Shown here one piece after another: positions 26,619 to 36,734 of a DNA stretch of 64,000 nucleotides. Both the position numbers and the translations under genes were made by a program. Origin of the DNA: Streptomyces sp. NBC_00820 (lineage in GTDB: Bacteria > Actinomycetota > Actinomycetes > Streptomycetales > Streptomycetaceae); the NCBI RefSeq assembly GCF_036347055.1, contig NZ_CP108882.1:6498001-6562000 (forward strand), in the 5' to 3' direction. Within the stretch, counting starts at the first letter, position 1. Each line of letters begins with the position of its first letter. The notes under the pieces were generated by a model. It was not told where the DNA came from. It saw nothing but the letters and a program-made list of their open reading frames with translations, and made no database searches.

Positions 26619-29141
26619 GTGGAAGCCGAGTTGGTGCGGCTGGTCGCGTCTGTTGCGACCACCATGGCCGGGGCGATCGGTACCGACGCATATACCGCGT
26701 TCAAGAACCGGCTGGGGGCACTTTTCAGGCGGGACAGGCAGGAGCGGGCGGACTCTTTCCTCAGCGAACTGGAGGAGCGACGTAACGATCTGGTCCTGGC
26801 TCGGGACAGGGGTGACGAAGCCCGGGTGGCGGAGCTGGTCTCAGAGATCGAGGAACTGCTGCGCAGCGAACTGCGACAGCTCCTGGGCGAGCAGCCCTCT
26901 CTGGCTGGAGAGCTGAGGGACCTGCACACAGAGGTAAGGAACGTTGTCACCAACGGCACCTTGGTAGTGGGAAGTCACACACAGGTGTCGAATGTGTACA
27001 ACCACTACTACGACGGGGGTTCGGCTCCCCCTCGACAGGCCCTTCGGAGCGATGCGGCGCCGTTGCCCCGAATCGTTCTGTGGCCGATGGAGCACTACGA
27101 GAACAACGACAGCCTGCTACGGCGCATGGACACCGTGTGGGAGCAAAGCCAGGCCGCCGGGGTCGCCGCCACACTGTATATGCAGGGTGTGCCGGGTAGT
27201 GGGACGTCCGCCGCTGCACGTAGGTGGCTGCGCACGCACAGAGACGAACTGGCGGGACCTCAACTCGAAGCGTCGCTGGGCAGAGACACCTGGGGAAACC
27301 TGCCGGAGCCCTCAGCGATCCTGGAACGCTGGTTCCGCGAGCTGGGCGTCCCGGCTGAAGACGTGCCTGCCGACCCCGGGGAGCGGTCGGCGTACTTCCG
27401 TAGGATCGCTGCCCGTGGCCCGATCGTCGTGCTGCTTGAGGACGTCGTAGTCGCCTCCCAGGTCGAACCGCTGCTGCCGGGCACTCCGGGCAGCGTGGCC
27501 CTCATCACCAGCCACTCCCGTCTACCCCGACTGGTCCGCACCGTCGGCGCGGAGCCTTTCGAGATGAAGCCGCTGAGTCGAGTGCACAGCCTGAGGCTGC
27601 TCATCAACGTGGGCAGGATCAAAGGCGACACGACGGCGTACGAGAAGGAACTCGACCTGATCGCCGACGGATGTGGCGATCTCCCTCTCGCACTGTGCAT
27701 CGCCGGGGCACAGCTGGCACTCGGTCACGCCGGCCGGGTGCATGAGCTGGCGACGGAACTGTCCGACCGCACGACCAGGCTGGAAACGCTCGACATGGAT
27801 GACGAGATCTCCGCCGCGCTGGACCCCGGTTATCGCGGCCTCACCGGTGATGCCGCGCGTCTGTACCGTTGCATCGGCCTTCACCCAGCCGGAAGGTTCG
27901 AGGTAGATGTCGTACGGGCCATGCTCCCGGACATGGACACCGCTGCCCGGAACAAGGTTGTTCGACAGCTCACCGACGCGAACCTGATTGAGCCGGACGG
28001 GGACGGCTACCGGGTGCGTCACCATCTCATCCACGACCATGCGCTCGCGTGTGCTCTCGCCGACGAACCGGCCGAGGCCCGTGAAGCGGTGCTGGACCGG
28101 ATCATCGCGCACTACCTGGAGTTCGCCGAACGCGCGGAGGCGGCTCTGTCCTCCCGCCACCGCTATGATCCCGCGGGTACGTACGCGGCGTACGCACCCA
28201 CCGGGAACGTTGACGCACCAAAGGTGATCGCGAGTCTGGAGCGACGCAGGGAGAGCCTGGAGAATGTGGTCCGCGTGGCTCACGAGATGGGTCGGCATGA
28301 CCAGACCTGGCGGCTGGCTCAGGGGCAGCACACCTTCTACCTCAAATGCGGCCTGCACAGTCCTTGGATCACGACACACGAACTAGCGCTCAAATCGGCC
28401 TACGAATGCCGTGACCAAATGGCCATCGCCCGTATGCACTTCGAACTCGGCTTCGCTTATCTCGAGCGGTGGAGCACACGCCAGGGCGACCCGCAGACCG
28501 CCCGCGAACACTTCGAGCGGGCACTTGAACTCGTACGCCCGGCCGATGGCAACGCCACCGAAGGGCAGCGGCGGACGGAGTCCAGTGCGCTGGAGGGTCT
28601 CGGCCTGCTGGAACGTAAGTTGGGCAATCCTGCGGTCGCCCTTGAGTACTACGCCGTGGGGCTGCGCGCGTTGAACGGCATCGACCACAAGCGTGGCCGA
28701 GCCTTGTTTGCCCTCCATCGTGGTGTGGCGTTCACTGATCTGCGGCGTCACGACGAGGCGGCCCGGGAACTGCGCTCCGCCCGCGAACAGTTTGCGGATC
28801 TGTCGGCGCCCGATCCTTACAACGTAGCTCGTGCTCTGACCCGTTGCGCCGAGGACCGGCGTGCCGCCGACCAGCTGGGTGCGGCTGTTCAGGCACTCGA
28901 TGATGCGATCGAGATCATGACCGTGAACGGTCCGCCCTACCAACGGGCCGGGATTCTTCTGCTCAGAGGTGATCTGCTGAGTGAACAGGGCGACCACGTA
29001 CGGGCGACGCTCGACTGGGTCACAGCGGGCGACCTGTTCCGCGAAGCGAACAGTCTGCGGGCGCAGGAGGCCGACCAGCGTCTCACAGATGCCCCGAGTC
29101 CGGGTGACGAGGACGGGTCACGGGACGTCGACGACGAGTAG
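26619..29141 (+). CDS. STAND-type NTPase with TPR-like C-terminus, atypical P-loop
   Basis: An 840-residue protein with the NB-ARC plus TPR plan of AfsR-like and defence-type STAND proteins but no DNA-binding domain. Residues 1-100 are a helical N-terminal region with a charged coiled-coil-like stretch. At about 115-135 is the beta motif NGTLVVGSHTQVSNVYNHYYDG, often used as an adaptor segment. The NTPase runs from about 150: YMQGVPGSGTSAAARRW in the P-loop position, with Thr where the Lys should be; PIVVLLEDVVVASQVEPLLPG as Walker B; HSRLPRL; GCGDLPLALCIAGAQLA (GLPLA motif). Residues 590-800 form TPR-like repeats. The GTG start has AAGGGGGCTGA. Its last 24 bases overlap the 3' end of the opposite-strand gene. 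Confidence 0.85.
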   Translation: MEAELVRLVASVATTMAGAIGTDAYTAFKNRLGALFRRDRQERADSFLSELEERRNDLVLARDRGDEARVAELVSEIEELLRSELRQLLGEQPSLAGELRDLHTEVRNVVTNGTLVVGSHTQVSNVYNHYYDGGSAPPRQALRSDAAPLPRIVLWPMEHYENNDSLLRRMDTVWEQSQAAGVAATLYMQGVPGSGTSAAARRWLRTHRDELAGPQLEASLGRDTWGNLPEPSAILERWFRELGVPAEDVPADPGERSAYFRRIAARGPIVVLLEDVVVASQVEPLLPGTPGSVALITSHSRLPRLVRTVGAEPFEMKPLSRVHSLRLLINVGRIKGDTTAYEKELDLIADGCGDLPLALCIAGAQLALGHAGRVHELATELSDRTTRLETLDMDDEISAALDPGYRGLTGDAARLYRCIGLHPAGRFEVDVVRAMLPDMDTAARNKVVRQLTDANLIEPDGDGYRVRHHLIHDHALACALADEPAEAREAVLDRIIAHYLEFAERAEAALSSRHRYDPAGTYAAYAPTGNVDAPKVIASLERRRESLENVVRVAHEMGRHDQTWRLAQGQHTFYLKCGLHSPWITTHELALKSAYECRDQMAIARMHFELGFAYLERWSTRQGDPQTAREHFERALELVRPADGNATEGQRRTESSALEGLGLLERKLGNPAVALEYYAVGLRALNGIDHKRGRALFALHRGVAFTDLRRHDEAARELRSAREQFADLSAPDPYNVARALTRCAEDRRAADQLGAAVQALDDAIEIMTVNGPPYQRAGILLLRGDLLSEQGDHVRATLDWVTAGDLFREANSLRAQEADQRLTDAPSPGDEDGSRDVDDE

Positions 29142-30434
29142 GCCAGTCTCGGTATCCGCTCCGATCGCCACCTGAACGTGCAACGGGCCGGGTCCGCCCA
29201 CGGCGGACATCGCGTGGTCATGGATCACCGAGGCCGCGATGGCCGCTGATGCCCACGACGGGCGCCTGCCGTCCCAGCGGGCGCTCAGGCGCGTGCCGTC
29301 CCGCAGCAACGCCAGGCAGCCGCCCTCGGGTTCTTCGAGGGCGAGCAGGGCGCACCCGGGGTAGACGGCGGCGACGGCCTCCCAGTTCACCAATCCGGCG
29401 ACGTGACGCGGTCGACCCAGCGGCACGATCAGTACGTCCGCGGAGTGGGGCCAGTTGATGTCCGGATCGTCGATGTCGGCCACCAGGTGGGCTCCCGACA
29501 GATGCCGTTCCATGGTGCGGCGCTGCAAGGGTGCGGGATAGCGCTGCACCGTGGCCCGGCCCTTTCCGGAGGCGACGGACACGTACACCGGTCGCTGGGC
29601 GGGGGAGGAGTATCCAACCGGCACGGTGGAGGGAACCGGAACCAATCGCGACCTGGCAGGTGTCACGGGCTCGGGAAGTTCGAGCCATTCATAGAACAGG
29701 CGCCGCAGTAGGACGGCCGATTCCCCGGGCCGTGACGTTACAGCCCCACGCAGCTGACCCAGTTCGGTGCTGTCCTGCTGGACTGCGGCCGCTTCCTTGA
29801 TCTGCGACAGGAAAGGCCGGCGAGCCGAAAGCCGGGGAAGTATCTGGCCGAGACGAGCCATGGGGGACTGAGAAGCCACCTTCGATTCTGCGAAAGAACC
29901 CAAAATAGTCGGGATACCCAACGCGAATCCGTACATCGTCAAAGAGCCATGGTCGCCAAGAATTCCATCCGCAGCCAGCAACGCGGCCTTCCAGGTTTCC
30001 GTATCCGGTACCGGAAGCAGTAGCCCATGCTCGGTAAGCGGAGCCAACCAGTTCTGCAATTGCCAGGCGCCATGACCGTAAAAGGCATTGCAATGGACGG
30101 CCGCCAAAACACGATATTCGTCGACCGGTAGCTCCGCCAGGACACGGCGAAGTAAATCCGATTCACTCTCGCCCGACGCCAGAATCGACCCGCGTCCCCA
30201 CGTGGACGAGACAACAATGAGCTTTTGGCCTGGGAGAACACCCATAGCCCGCCGGTAGTCCTCCCGGAACGGAGCGCTCACCTGTAGCTGATCGAAGCAG
30301 GGATCCCCCGCCACCACGCTTATGGGTACGGCCTCGGGGCAACTAGCAGCGAGCCGCTGGCGTTGTTCATCATGAGAGAGAATGATCGCCGACGGAACCA
30401 TCCGGCCTTCATGTGTCAACCACTCTGGCGACAA
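29118..30434 (-). CDS. TagF/TagB-like GT-B protein, C-terminal part (out of frame with its 5' part)
   Basis: This frame encodes the C-terminal portion of a GT-B protein resembling CDP-glycerol glycerophosphotransferases. Visible equivalents are VVAGDPCFDQL, QKLIVVSSTWGRGS, YRVLAAVHCNAFYG and LLAADGILGDHGSLTMYGFALGIPTIL, which mirrors the TagF DYSS-x-x-x-D-x-A segment. It is the direct continuation of the frame at 30416-30919: upstream codons read KREAFGLSPEWL across the end of the 7-bp repeat tract. With 15 repeat units the two parts are in different frames, so no full-length product is made unless slippage occurs. A TTG at 30434 could start a separate protein, but I see no ribosome site. The gene converges on the STAND gene with 24 bases shared. 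Confidence 0.75.
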   Translation of the reverse strand: MSPEWLTHEGRMVPSAIILSHDEQRQRLAASCPEAVPISVVAGDPCFDQLQVSAPFREDYRRAMGVLPGQKLIVVSSTWGRGSILASGESESDLLRRVLAELPVDEYRVLAAVHCNAFYGHGAWQLQNWLAPLTEHGLLLPVPDTETWKAALLAADGILGDHGSLTMYGFALGIPTILGSFAESKVASQSPMARLGQILPRLSARRPFLSQIKEAAAVQQDSTELGQLRGAVTSRPGESAVLLRRLFYEWLELPEPVTPARSRLVPVPSTVPVGYSSPAQRPVYVSVASGKGRATVQRYPAPLQRRTMERHLSGAHLVADIDDPDINWPHSADVLIVPLGRPRHVAGLVNWEAVAAVYPGCALLALEEPEGGCLALLRDGTRLSARWDGRRPSWASAAIAASVIHDHAMSAVGGPGPLHVQVAIGADTETGLLVVDVP

Positions 30435-30919
30435 GCCAAATGCTTCCCGCTTCCCGCTTCCCGCTTCCCGCTTCCCGCTTCCCGCTTCCCGCTTCCCGCT
30501 TCCCGCTTCCCGCTTCCCGCTTCCCGCTTCCCGCTTCCCGCTTCCCGCTTCAACAGCTTATTGTACCCCGCGCCATGCGGTGCGCCAATCAATGGAGTGC
30601 GCAAATTTTGAAGGTCGCCGCCCCGGCTTGTGGCAATCGCCAAGTCGAATTTTTGAGCCGTTGCTTCTTCCCACGGTATATGTAGCATTCCCCGGGAAGT
30701 GAAGAATTCAAAAATCCCCTCGTCAAGAGCCGAGGATTCGGTGCAGGTGAAGACCGTTTGGACGCGCCGGTCGCCTTCGAACACGGTGAGCAGGTCGAGC
30801 AGCCGCGTCGCGGATGTGATGTTGTGGACCACGCCGAGAACGGTTCGCTTCGCCGCCACACTCACCCAGCGTCGACCGTCCGCCGCCATCGGCAGCGGAA
30901 GTCGCCCTGCACCGCGCAC
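30416..30919 (-). CDS. TagF/TagB-like GT-B protein, N-terminal part ending after the repeat tract
   Basis: A 167-residue frame from a GTG with a GGGGAG ribosome site. It has a Rossmann-like N-terminus (KRTVLGVVHNITSATRLLDLLTVFEGD, VQTVFTCTESSALDEGIFEFF, FDLAIATSRGG) and LIGAPHGAGYNK (about residues 108-120), the position of the WHGTPLK motif in TagF-like enzymes. It then runs through five copies of KREAGSG, encoded by fifteen 7-bp units, and ends at HLACRQSG. The homologous continuation is in another frame (29118-30434). Thirteen or sixteen units would join the two into one protein of about 600 residues. I therefore read this as one gene in an 'off' state. Confidence 0.75.
   Translation of the reverse strand: MRGAGRLPLPMAADGRRWVSVAAKRTVLGVVHNITSATRLLDLLTVFEGDRRVQTVFTCTESSALDEGIFEFFTSRGMLHIPWEEATAQKFDLAIATSRGGDLQNLRTPLIGAPHGAGYNKLLKREAGSGKREAGSGKREAGSGKREAGSGKREAGSGKHLACRQSG
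30443..30550. repeat. 7-bp simple sequence repeat, 15 units, inside a coding region
   Basis: Fifteen perfect CTTCCCG units (CGGGAAG on the coding strand) plus a partial unit. Because 7 is not a multiple of three, one unit gained or lost moves the frame. All three frames through the tract lack stops and give the same seven-residue repeat KREAGSG, so only the exit frame matters. At n=15 translation stops after KHLACRQSG. At n=13 or 16 it continues as KREAFGLSPEWL into the rest of the protein. Confidence 0.97.
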
Positions 30920-35823: not shown

Positions 35824-36734
35824 AGGAACATCACGGCGGCGGATCTATGTGCATACATAGCCAAGTTGGAGTCAACCGTCTCCTCGGTCGACTACCAGCG
35901 CGGCATTCTGTCCGAGCTCTCCTCCATTCTGGAAGCGGCTGTCGACGACAAGCGGCTCGCCAGGAACCCCATGCGTGCGAAGTCCGTGCGGTGGCCAAAG
36001 GCGCCGCAAGAGCGACGCGACGCGTGGCCGTTGGAGACGGCGCTGCGAGTCCGAGACGTCATCAGCGCGCACAACCGGATAGCCGTCGTAGTCGGCCTGG
36101 GATGCGGGCTCCGTCAGGGCGAGGTGTTTGGGTTGAGCCCGGAGGGCATCGACTACGCCCGAGGCGTCCTCCACGTCCGCCGCCAAATCCAGGCGATCCG
36201 TGGAAGGTTGTACTTCGCCCTGCCGAAGGGGAAGAAGACCCGTATCGTCGACATGCCCTCCTCGGTGGCCGAGGAGGGCATGTCGAAGCGTTCCCACCGG
36301 TCGAGGTGGAGCTTCCGTGGGGGAAGCCGGAGGGGCAGGGGCGGAAGTTCTCCCTGCTGCTCACCACGCGACTCGGCAACGCAGTCGCGGTGAACACGTG
36401 GAACACCTACACCTGGAAGCCCGCGCTGGCCGAGGCCGGCATCATCCCGCCGCGCGCCGAGGGAGTGAAACCCTGGCAGTGGGCGGCGGCCCCGAAGGAC
36501 GGCTTCCACGTGCTGCGGCACACCTATGCCTCGATCATGCTGGAGGCCGGAGAGTCTGTCGTGACCTTGGCGCGGTGGCTCGGGCACTCCTCGCCCGCGA
36601 TCACCCTCGGTTACTATGCTCACTTCATGTCGGAGGCCGGAAGCAAGGGGCGCACCGCCATTGACGGACTGCTTGGGGAGCGGGGGGATCGGCATGCCGG
36701 TCGAAACTCCCCAGATTCTCCCCAGGCCCGTTGA
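35821..36734 (+). pseudogene. Tyrosine recombinase/integrase, 5'-truncated and frameshifted
   Basis: The readable part starts at FRNITAADLCAYIAKLESTV in the core-binding domain; the arm-binding N-terminus is missing. The catalytic domain begins VVGLGCGLRQGEVFGLSPEGI with the first Arg. After VDMPSSVAEEG (about 36275) the sequence shifts frame and continues HVEAFPPVEVELPWGKPEGQ. It ends with DGFHVLRHTYASIMLEAGESVVTLARWLGHSSPAITLGYYAHFM, which contains H-x-LRH, GH and the nucleophile Tyr. The type is the actinobacterial element integrase. It ends 77 bases before the host HipA-like gene, the usual int-att layout. The truncation and frameshift make it inactive. Confidence 0.88.
36706..36726 (+). 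repeat. Right copy of the element-end repeat
   Basis: CTCCCCAGATTCTCCCC and its flanks match 22889-22909 with one mismatch over 21 bp. It overlaps the last codons of the integrase remnant. An inverted TTGGGGAG box is nearby (36674-36681). Confidence 0.6.

Follow-up and report, generated by a model that had tools for sequence, protein, structure and literature searches.

The window, by which we mean the whole 64,000-nt stretch of DNA analysed, carries on its minus strand a gene for a likely TagF-like GT-B transferase that is interrupted by a perfect heptanucleotide array, and a STAND gene that runs towards it from the other side (Table 1). The array is 110 bp long, with a period of 7, 15.7 copies and 100% matches, and its 15 full CGGGAAG units occupy positions 30443-30547 of the minus strand, right after the PHGAGYNK motif, as the earlier note on this DNA had stated. 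The same note had placed the 5′ and 3′ parts of one GT-B protein in different frames on the two sides of the tract. The open reading frames confirm this: the 5′ ORF (30416-30919, minus strand) and the 3′ ORF (29118-30434, minus strand) are in different frames, the 5′ frame continues past the repeat peptide for the nine residues KHLACRQSG before its stop, and upstream of the 3′ half the frame stays open across the tract to KREAFGLSPEWL. With this tail and this open upstream frame, its frame statements (a stop nine codons on with 15 units, a continuous protein with 13 or 16) hold in kind, and the 7-nt unit does encode the same heptapeptide in all three frames. The sequenced window genome carries an OFF allele.

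Table 1. Features of the transferase-STAND locus (positions in the window)
Feature	Positions	Strand	Remarks
Perfect heptanucleotide array, probable contingency tract	30442..30551	-	15 full CGGGAAG units and a partial one
5′ half of the predicted TagF-like GT-B gene	30552..30919	-	GTG start at 30919, GGGGAG upstream; ends with PHGAGYNK
Frame-shifted tail of the 5′ half with its stop, present OFF allele	30416..30441	-	
3′ half of the predicted TagF-like GT-B gene	29118..30441	-	FGLSPEWL to the stop TGA at 29118-29120
Convergent STAND gene (NB-ARC and TPR, NLR-like)	26619..29141	+	24-bp overlap with the 3′ end of the transferase gene

The longest period-7 array in 30 copies of the window generated with a first-order Markov model reached only 19 bp; therefore, the 110-bp array is not a product of chance. 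It is also the sole place in the 8.1-Mb single-contig genome, on either strand, where at least three consecutive exact CGGGAAG units occur.

The predicted fold of the product is of the TagF-like GT-B type, with TagF and TarL (3l7k, 8va1) among the closest folds, which makes a TagF-like transferase its likely identity. The longest stretch with a pLDDT below 50, residues 126-131, falls at the tract site. The catalytic histidines of TagF are H444 and H584 according to PMC5974469. We observed that H115 and H250 were invariant in 43 of 43 relatives, and that their spacing fits that of the TagF histidines, a fit of distances rather than of a residue-level structural alignment. These two histidines would be the catalytic residues of an active enzyme. 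The Pfam family PF04464 gave no match for the window halves; among the relatives, 5 of 45 matched it at E ≤ 0.01 (best 1e-5), and a plasmid-borne relative (L196) scored 15.6 bits at a cut-off of 22.1. A search of the PDB sequences with the family profile gave just two chance-level matches (E 0.39 and 0.47). The Foldseek 'viral' matches were mostly generic glycosyltransferases with low TM-scores.

Next, we surveyed the homologues. A DNA search (199 relatives) gave one 88% relative near full length and one 66% relative over part of the gene. The 3′ half was matched in 170 of 392 Streptomyces genomes at E ≤ 1e-10, a count in which subfamilies are not separated. A profile scan of named genomes yielded 503 relatives, of which the best 80 were kept, from Streptomyces, Kitasatospora, Actinacidiphila, Actinomadura, Saccharothrix, Amycolatopsis, Frankia, Nonomuraea, Nocardia, Crossiella, Fodinicola and Actinokineospora, and a class-wide profile search at E ≤ 1e-30 recovered the gene in 40 of 394 genomes and 14 of 137 genera. 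Phage records gave no match; one relative was found in IMG/VR. We pooled 192 matches, with the own-genome duplicate (L242) left aside, and 164 distinct matches remained once rows identical over 600 nt had been merged. This pool is made of top-ranked matches (70 loci from the Streptomyces list, the best 80 of the 503 named-genome relatives, six of seven plasmid records and 30 loci from the class-wide search); many of its genomes are drafts, and the second match of L119 and L244 are among its few poorly registered rows.

A tandem array, defined as a perfect run of at least two units and at least 14 bp, occupied one and the same position in 134 of these 164 matches, in Streptomyces as well as in other actinobacteria. 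This position is flanked by a motif of the HG.GYNK type on the 5′ side and one of the FGL/VFG type on the 3′ side. The period was 7 in 114 arrays, 8 in 11 and 10 in 9, and the arrays comprise 44 distinct units up to rotation, ranging from the AGCCGGG type to AT-richer ones in Actinomadura, Frankia and Nonomuraea. The earlier note had proposed that homologues be aligned to tell one protein from two genes, and that unit counts be compared among related strains. Both parts turned out to form a single continuous ORF in many relatives, and the counts do differ: in S. tailanensis, the nearest relative, the tract is 75 bp (five units shorter) and the gene is continuous, and in the S. anthocyanicus pair described below the difference is eight units. 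Where annotation was examined, the product was called 'hypothetical protein', and OFF alleles were annotated for the 3′ part only.

Both halves were resolved in 128 tract-bearing alleles (the 134 tract rows minus six without a resolved N-half), and 81 of them were in frame and 47 shifted, 28 in one phase and 19 in the other. The in-frame share exceeds one third (binomial p 6e-12, from related, similarity-ranked and therefore non-independent samples). OFF tracts were longer than ON tracts (median 9.6 vs 6.1 copies), and of the 15 resolved tracts with fewer than four copies, 14 were ON. Thus ON seems to be favoured, yet OFF is common.

Unit number was seen to vary from strain to strain and from species to species, and a single pair of alleles is otherwise nearly identical. 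This pair consists of the plasmids of S. anthocyanicus NBC_01372 and NBC_01668, whose flanks are 100% identical over 1476 bp and 99.86% over 735 bp, each alignment including 67 bp of tract. Their tracts measure 67 and 123 bp, a difference of 56 bp or exactly eight units, the former being ON and the latter OFF; a CDS of 589 codons is annotated on the NBC_01372 plasmid, and only the 3′ part on that of NBC_01668. Two more distant pairs are one unit apart and in opposite states, one with a 10-nt unit (L161/L174, 95.6% identity) and one with a 7-nt unit (L087/L091, 89.4% identity). That assembly or sequencing errors produced the shifted alleles, the real unit number being always in frame, is extremely improbable: drafts dominate the sample and long repeats are error-prone, but the window genome is one contig, the two S. 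anthocyanicus plasmids are titled complete and differ by whole units between near-identical flanks, and just 2 of 116 tracts exceed 150 bp, so that short reads should be able to span the others.

A decaying pseudogene could also appear as a split gene, if chance expansion of the array had broken it in the window and in other genomes, and the shifted window allele and the 47 shifted alleles among the 128 would be in line with this. However, all 29 resolved copies that lack a tract are in frame, and in shifted copies the 3′ frame remains open for at least 405 aa. We calculated dN/dS for 19 close pairs, four of them OFF-OFF, and obtained 0.00-0.32 for the N-half and 0.21-0.51 for the C-half, well below 1; OFF copies are under purifying selection. 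The state is also scattered over the tree. A FastTree tree of 115 tract-bearing proteins required 36 state changes, against 35.1 (sd 2.2) in 200 label shuffles. As changes are as frequent as with shuffled labels, the ON/OFF state is without phylogenetic signal and its turnover is fast relative to speciation. The open C-halves, the low dN/dS and the scattered state largely refute decay, to which we give hardly any credence.

Another explanation supposes that the array merely varies the length of the disordered loop, giving linker or surface variants, with the frame shifts as by-products. The loop is indeed predicted at low confidence, and linker lengths are very different among open alleles. 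Under selection on length, however, units of 3, 6 or 9 nt should prevail, and although periods of 6, 9, 12 and 15 were also searched, none of the 134 arrays had a period divisible by three. In the background, that is 1.47 Mb around 118 loci outside the target gene, we found 13 arrays of at least four copies, of which 6 had a period divisible by three and 2 had period 7. The target gene regions of the same loci held 98 arrays of at least four copies (89, 5 and 4 of periods 7, 8 and 10, respectively). Many different unit sequences thus retain one formal property, a period that is not divisible by three. The absence of stops in the units is weak evidence (0 of 36 units vs 2.7 expected from shuffled units), and we did not rely on it.

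Arrays at a second position also bear on loop length. A paralogous subfamily, with a member in the window's own genome (contig 1, 6972339-6974045), lacks the loop array in the members examined. An array was found 5′ of the gene, where it is unable to vary the loop, in 28 of the 30 top paralogous relatives (L198-L227), with period 7 in 27 and period 8 in one and with up to 53 copies; the own-genome paralogue has 27 copies of AGCCGCG. This array sits just upstream of the gene, behind a promoter-like sequence in which cGATAaa was often recognised by eye, and ATG immediately precedes it in several paralogues. In 4 of the 28, a start codon lying no more than 24 nt ahead of the array is in a frame that leads into the gene. 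In about seven others, the frame opened by such a start codon stops 1-8 nt beyond the presumed main start, an arrangement that would suit translational coupling. In S. macrolidinus, three such transferase genes lie within 17 kb, and in one of them a 14-copy array lies directly where the gene begins. The occurrence of arrays at two places in one family, the mid-ORF loop and the 5′ side, argues that variability of the transferase gene itself is selected. We consider variation of loop length as the purpose of the array very unlikely.

We are therefore quite confident that the locus is a simple-sequence-repeat (SSR) contingency locus that switches a TagF-like GT-B transferase, usually within a two-gene module with a convergent STAND ATPase. 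The earlier note had recognised the structure of a contingency locus, and the conserved tract site, the two frame states, the strain pair and the selection on OFF copies all support its reading. Slippage, the presumed mechanism, would alter the number of 7-nt units (8- or 10-nt units elsewhere), and each unit step would shift the reading frame, since every array seen had a unit length not divisible by three. One phase of three would let the ribosome read through the disordered loop beside the first catalytic histidine and make the whole enzyme. In the other two phases, it would leave the frame at the loop, and the part that contains the C-terminal domain and the second catalytic histidine would be missing. 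Such switching would presumably take place within a clone.

The STAND ATPase reported beside the transferase gene does adjoin it, in convergent orientation. Its predicted fold is an NB-ARC domain with a C-terminal TPR region. In tblastn searches, a convergent STAND gene was present at the 3′ end of the transferase gene in 119 of 129 matches, a count that takes scores above 60 bits, includes partial matches and remnants (L193 and L194, the S. anthocyanicus pair) and has some loci as two rows. When ORFs of at least 150 aa in the flanks of L111-L190 were clustered, the STAND cluster was represented in 75 loci and the next in 9, and most flanks held no third conserved gene. Transferase and STAND are thus shown to be a conserved gene pair, and a physical or functional link between them may be presumed. 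The Walker A motif of the window protein, GVPGSGTS, has no lysine; a motif scan found the lysine in 48 of 110 partners and no motif in 23. As this lysine is often replaced, many STAND partners may not hydrolyse ATP normally. A PADLOC scan of three proteins returned only a TPR model, for the window STAND (E=0.004). On two S. coelicoflavus plasmids (L191, L192) an OFF transferase gene, and on a plasmid of Streptomyces sp. SYP-A7193 (L196) an ON one, is accompanied by a full-length convergent STAND gene. The two S. anthocyanicus plasmids retain only a C-terminal remnant of the STAND gene (about residues 612-738 of 741 by tblastn, with a 216-bp CDS annotated), and their transferase tract still varies; the best evidence for switching thus comes from a module that is not intact. 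No tRNA was found in the 64-kb window. An ORF of the phage-integrase family lies at 35847-36734, 5 kb from the locus, and its match is confined to the last part of the profile (129-167 of 172).

What the module does can be stated with less certainty. There is an even chance that it is a phase-variable surface-glycopolymer or conflict (phage) module, in which the enzyme would be guarded or regulated by the STAND protein or act as its effector; phage conflict and surface variation appear about equally probable as its role. One possibility, which we advance tentatively, is a widespread mobile immune module of actinobacteria, with an NLR-like STAND protein and a TagF-like transferase whose expression would be randomized by heptanucleotide slippage, the arrays lying at the mid-ORF loop or in the 5′ leader in different subfamilies. 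If this were true, a filamentous colony would consist of compartments with the module armed and disarmed, so that the cost of autoimmunity is spread and phage counter-adaptation blunted. Also conceivable, if short of probable, is a phase-variable enzyme of cell-wall glycopolymers that varies phage receptors, with the STAND protein as a regulator only and not an immune partner. Phase-variable surface glycosyltransferases are a textbook case, and TagF and TarL are wall-type neighbours in fold space; moreover, the STAND protein is without a recognised effector domain, and the transferase persists beside a mere STAND remnant in S. anthocyanicus. On the other hand, the flanks of L111-L190 (ORFs of at least 150 aa) contain no conserved wall-polymer gene, some genomes have several copies, and some copies are plasmid-borne.

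Repeat-based phase variation is known mostly from host-adapted Gram-negatives, such as the SSR contingency loci of Haemophilus and Neisseria with their phase-variable LPS glycosyltransferases. The present locus resembles these in its units not divisible by three, its glycan-type transferase and its natural ON and OFF alleles. It differs from them in being actinobacterial, in having units of 7, 8 or 10 nt placed mid-gene after an active-site motif, with a unit sequence that changes, and in the convergent STAND partner. According to PMC4365076, pglX of the Pgl system of S. coelicolor undergoes phase variation by a change in tract length and is linked to phage resistance. It is likewise a Streptomyces gene with a length-changing tract; its tract, however, is a G homopolymer in a methyltransferase gene, and neither gene of our locus is a Pgl part as described there. 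SSR phase variation is thus a known kind of switch, with pglX as its Streptomyces precedent. In GT4-STAND conflict systems, as presented by Kaur et al. 2021 (PMC8195603), a glycosyltransferase is the predicted effector tied to STAND NTPases. There, GT4 domains are fused to STAND, whereas here the TagF-like enzyme is encoded by a separate convergent gene and is apparently phase-variable; 'phase variation' has no occurrence in the main text of that paper. The accessible text of a survey of frameshifted genes (PMC3711429) contains neither 'heptanucleotide' nor 'glycosyltransferase'.

Our literature search, with most subscription papers and preprints outside its coverage, found no paper on the locus, nor the transferase family, the mid-gene 7/8/10-nt design or the NLR-like partner. 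That so many relatives from soil bacteria have an array at this site, usually next to a gene resembling immune receptors, suggests that actinobacteria have a switchable system which is as yet undescribed. The locus points to a phase-variable family across this group; it would tie stochastic switching to an NLR-like partner and make bet-hedging in multicellular bacteria directly testable.

Arrays of CGGGAAG-type heptamers were also seen in Streptomyces DNA outside the transferase family (loci L012, L013, L016, L023, L030 and L035), and the NCBIfam model NF041631, 'KRQAASG repeat spurious translation', matches the repeat peptide of the window. Given these similar arrays and this 'spurious translation' call, heptamer arrays seem to be a feature of Streptomyces in general, and, as a point against the contingency reading, the formation of the arrays looks to be partly a general mutational habit.
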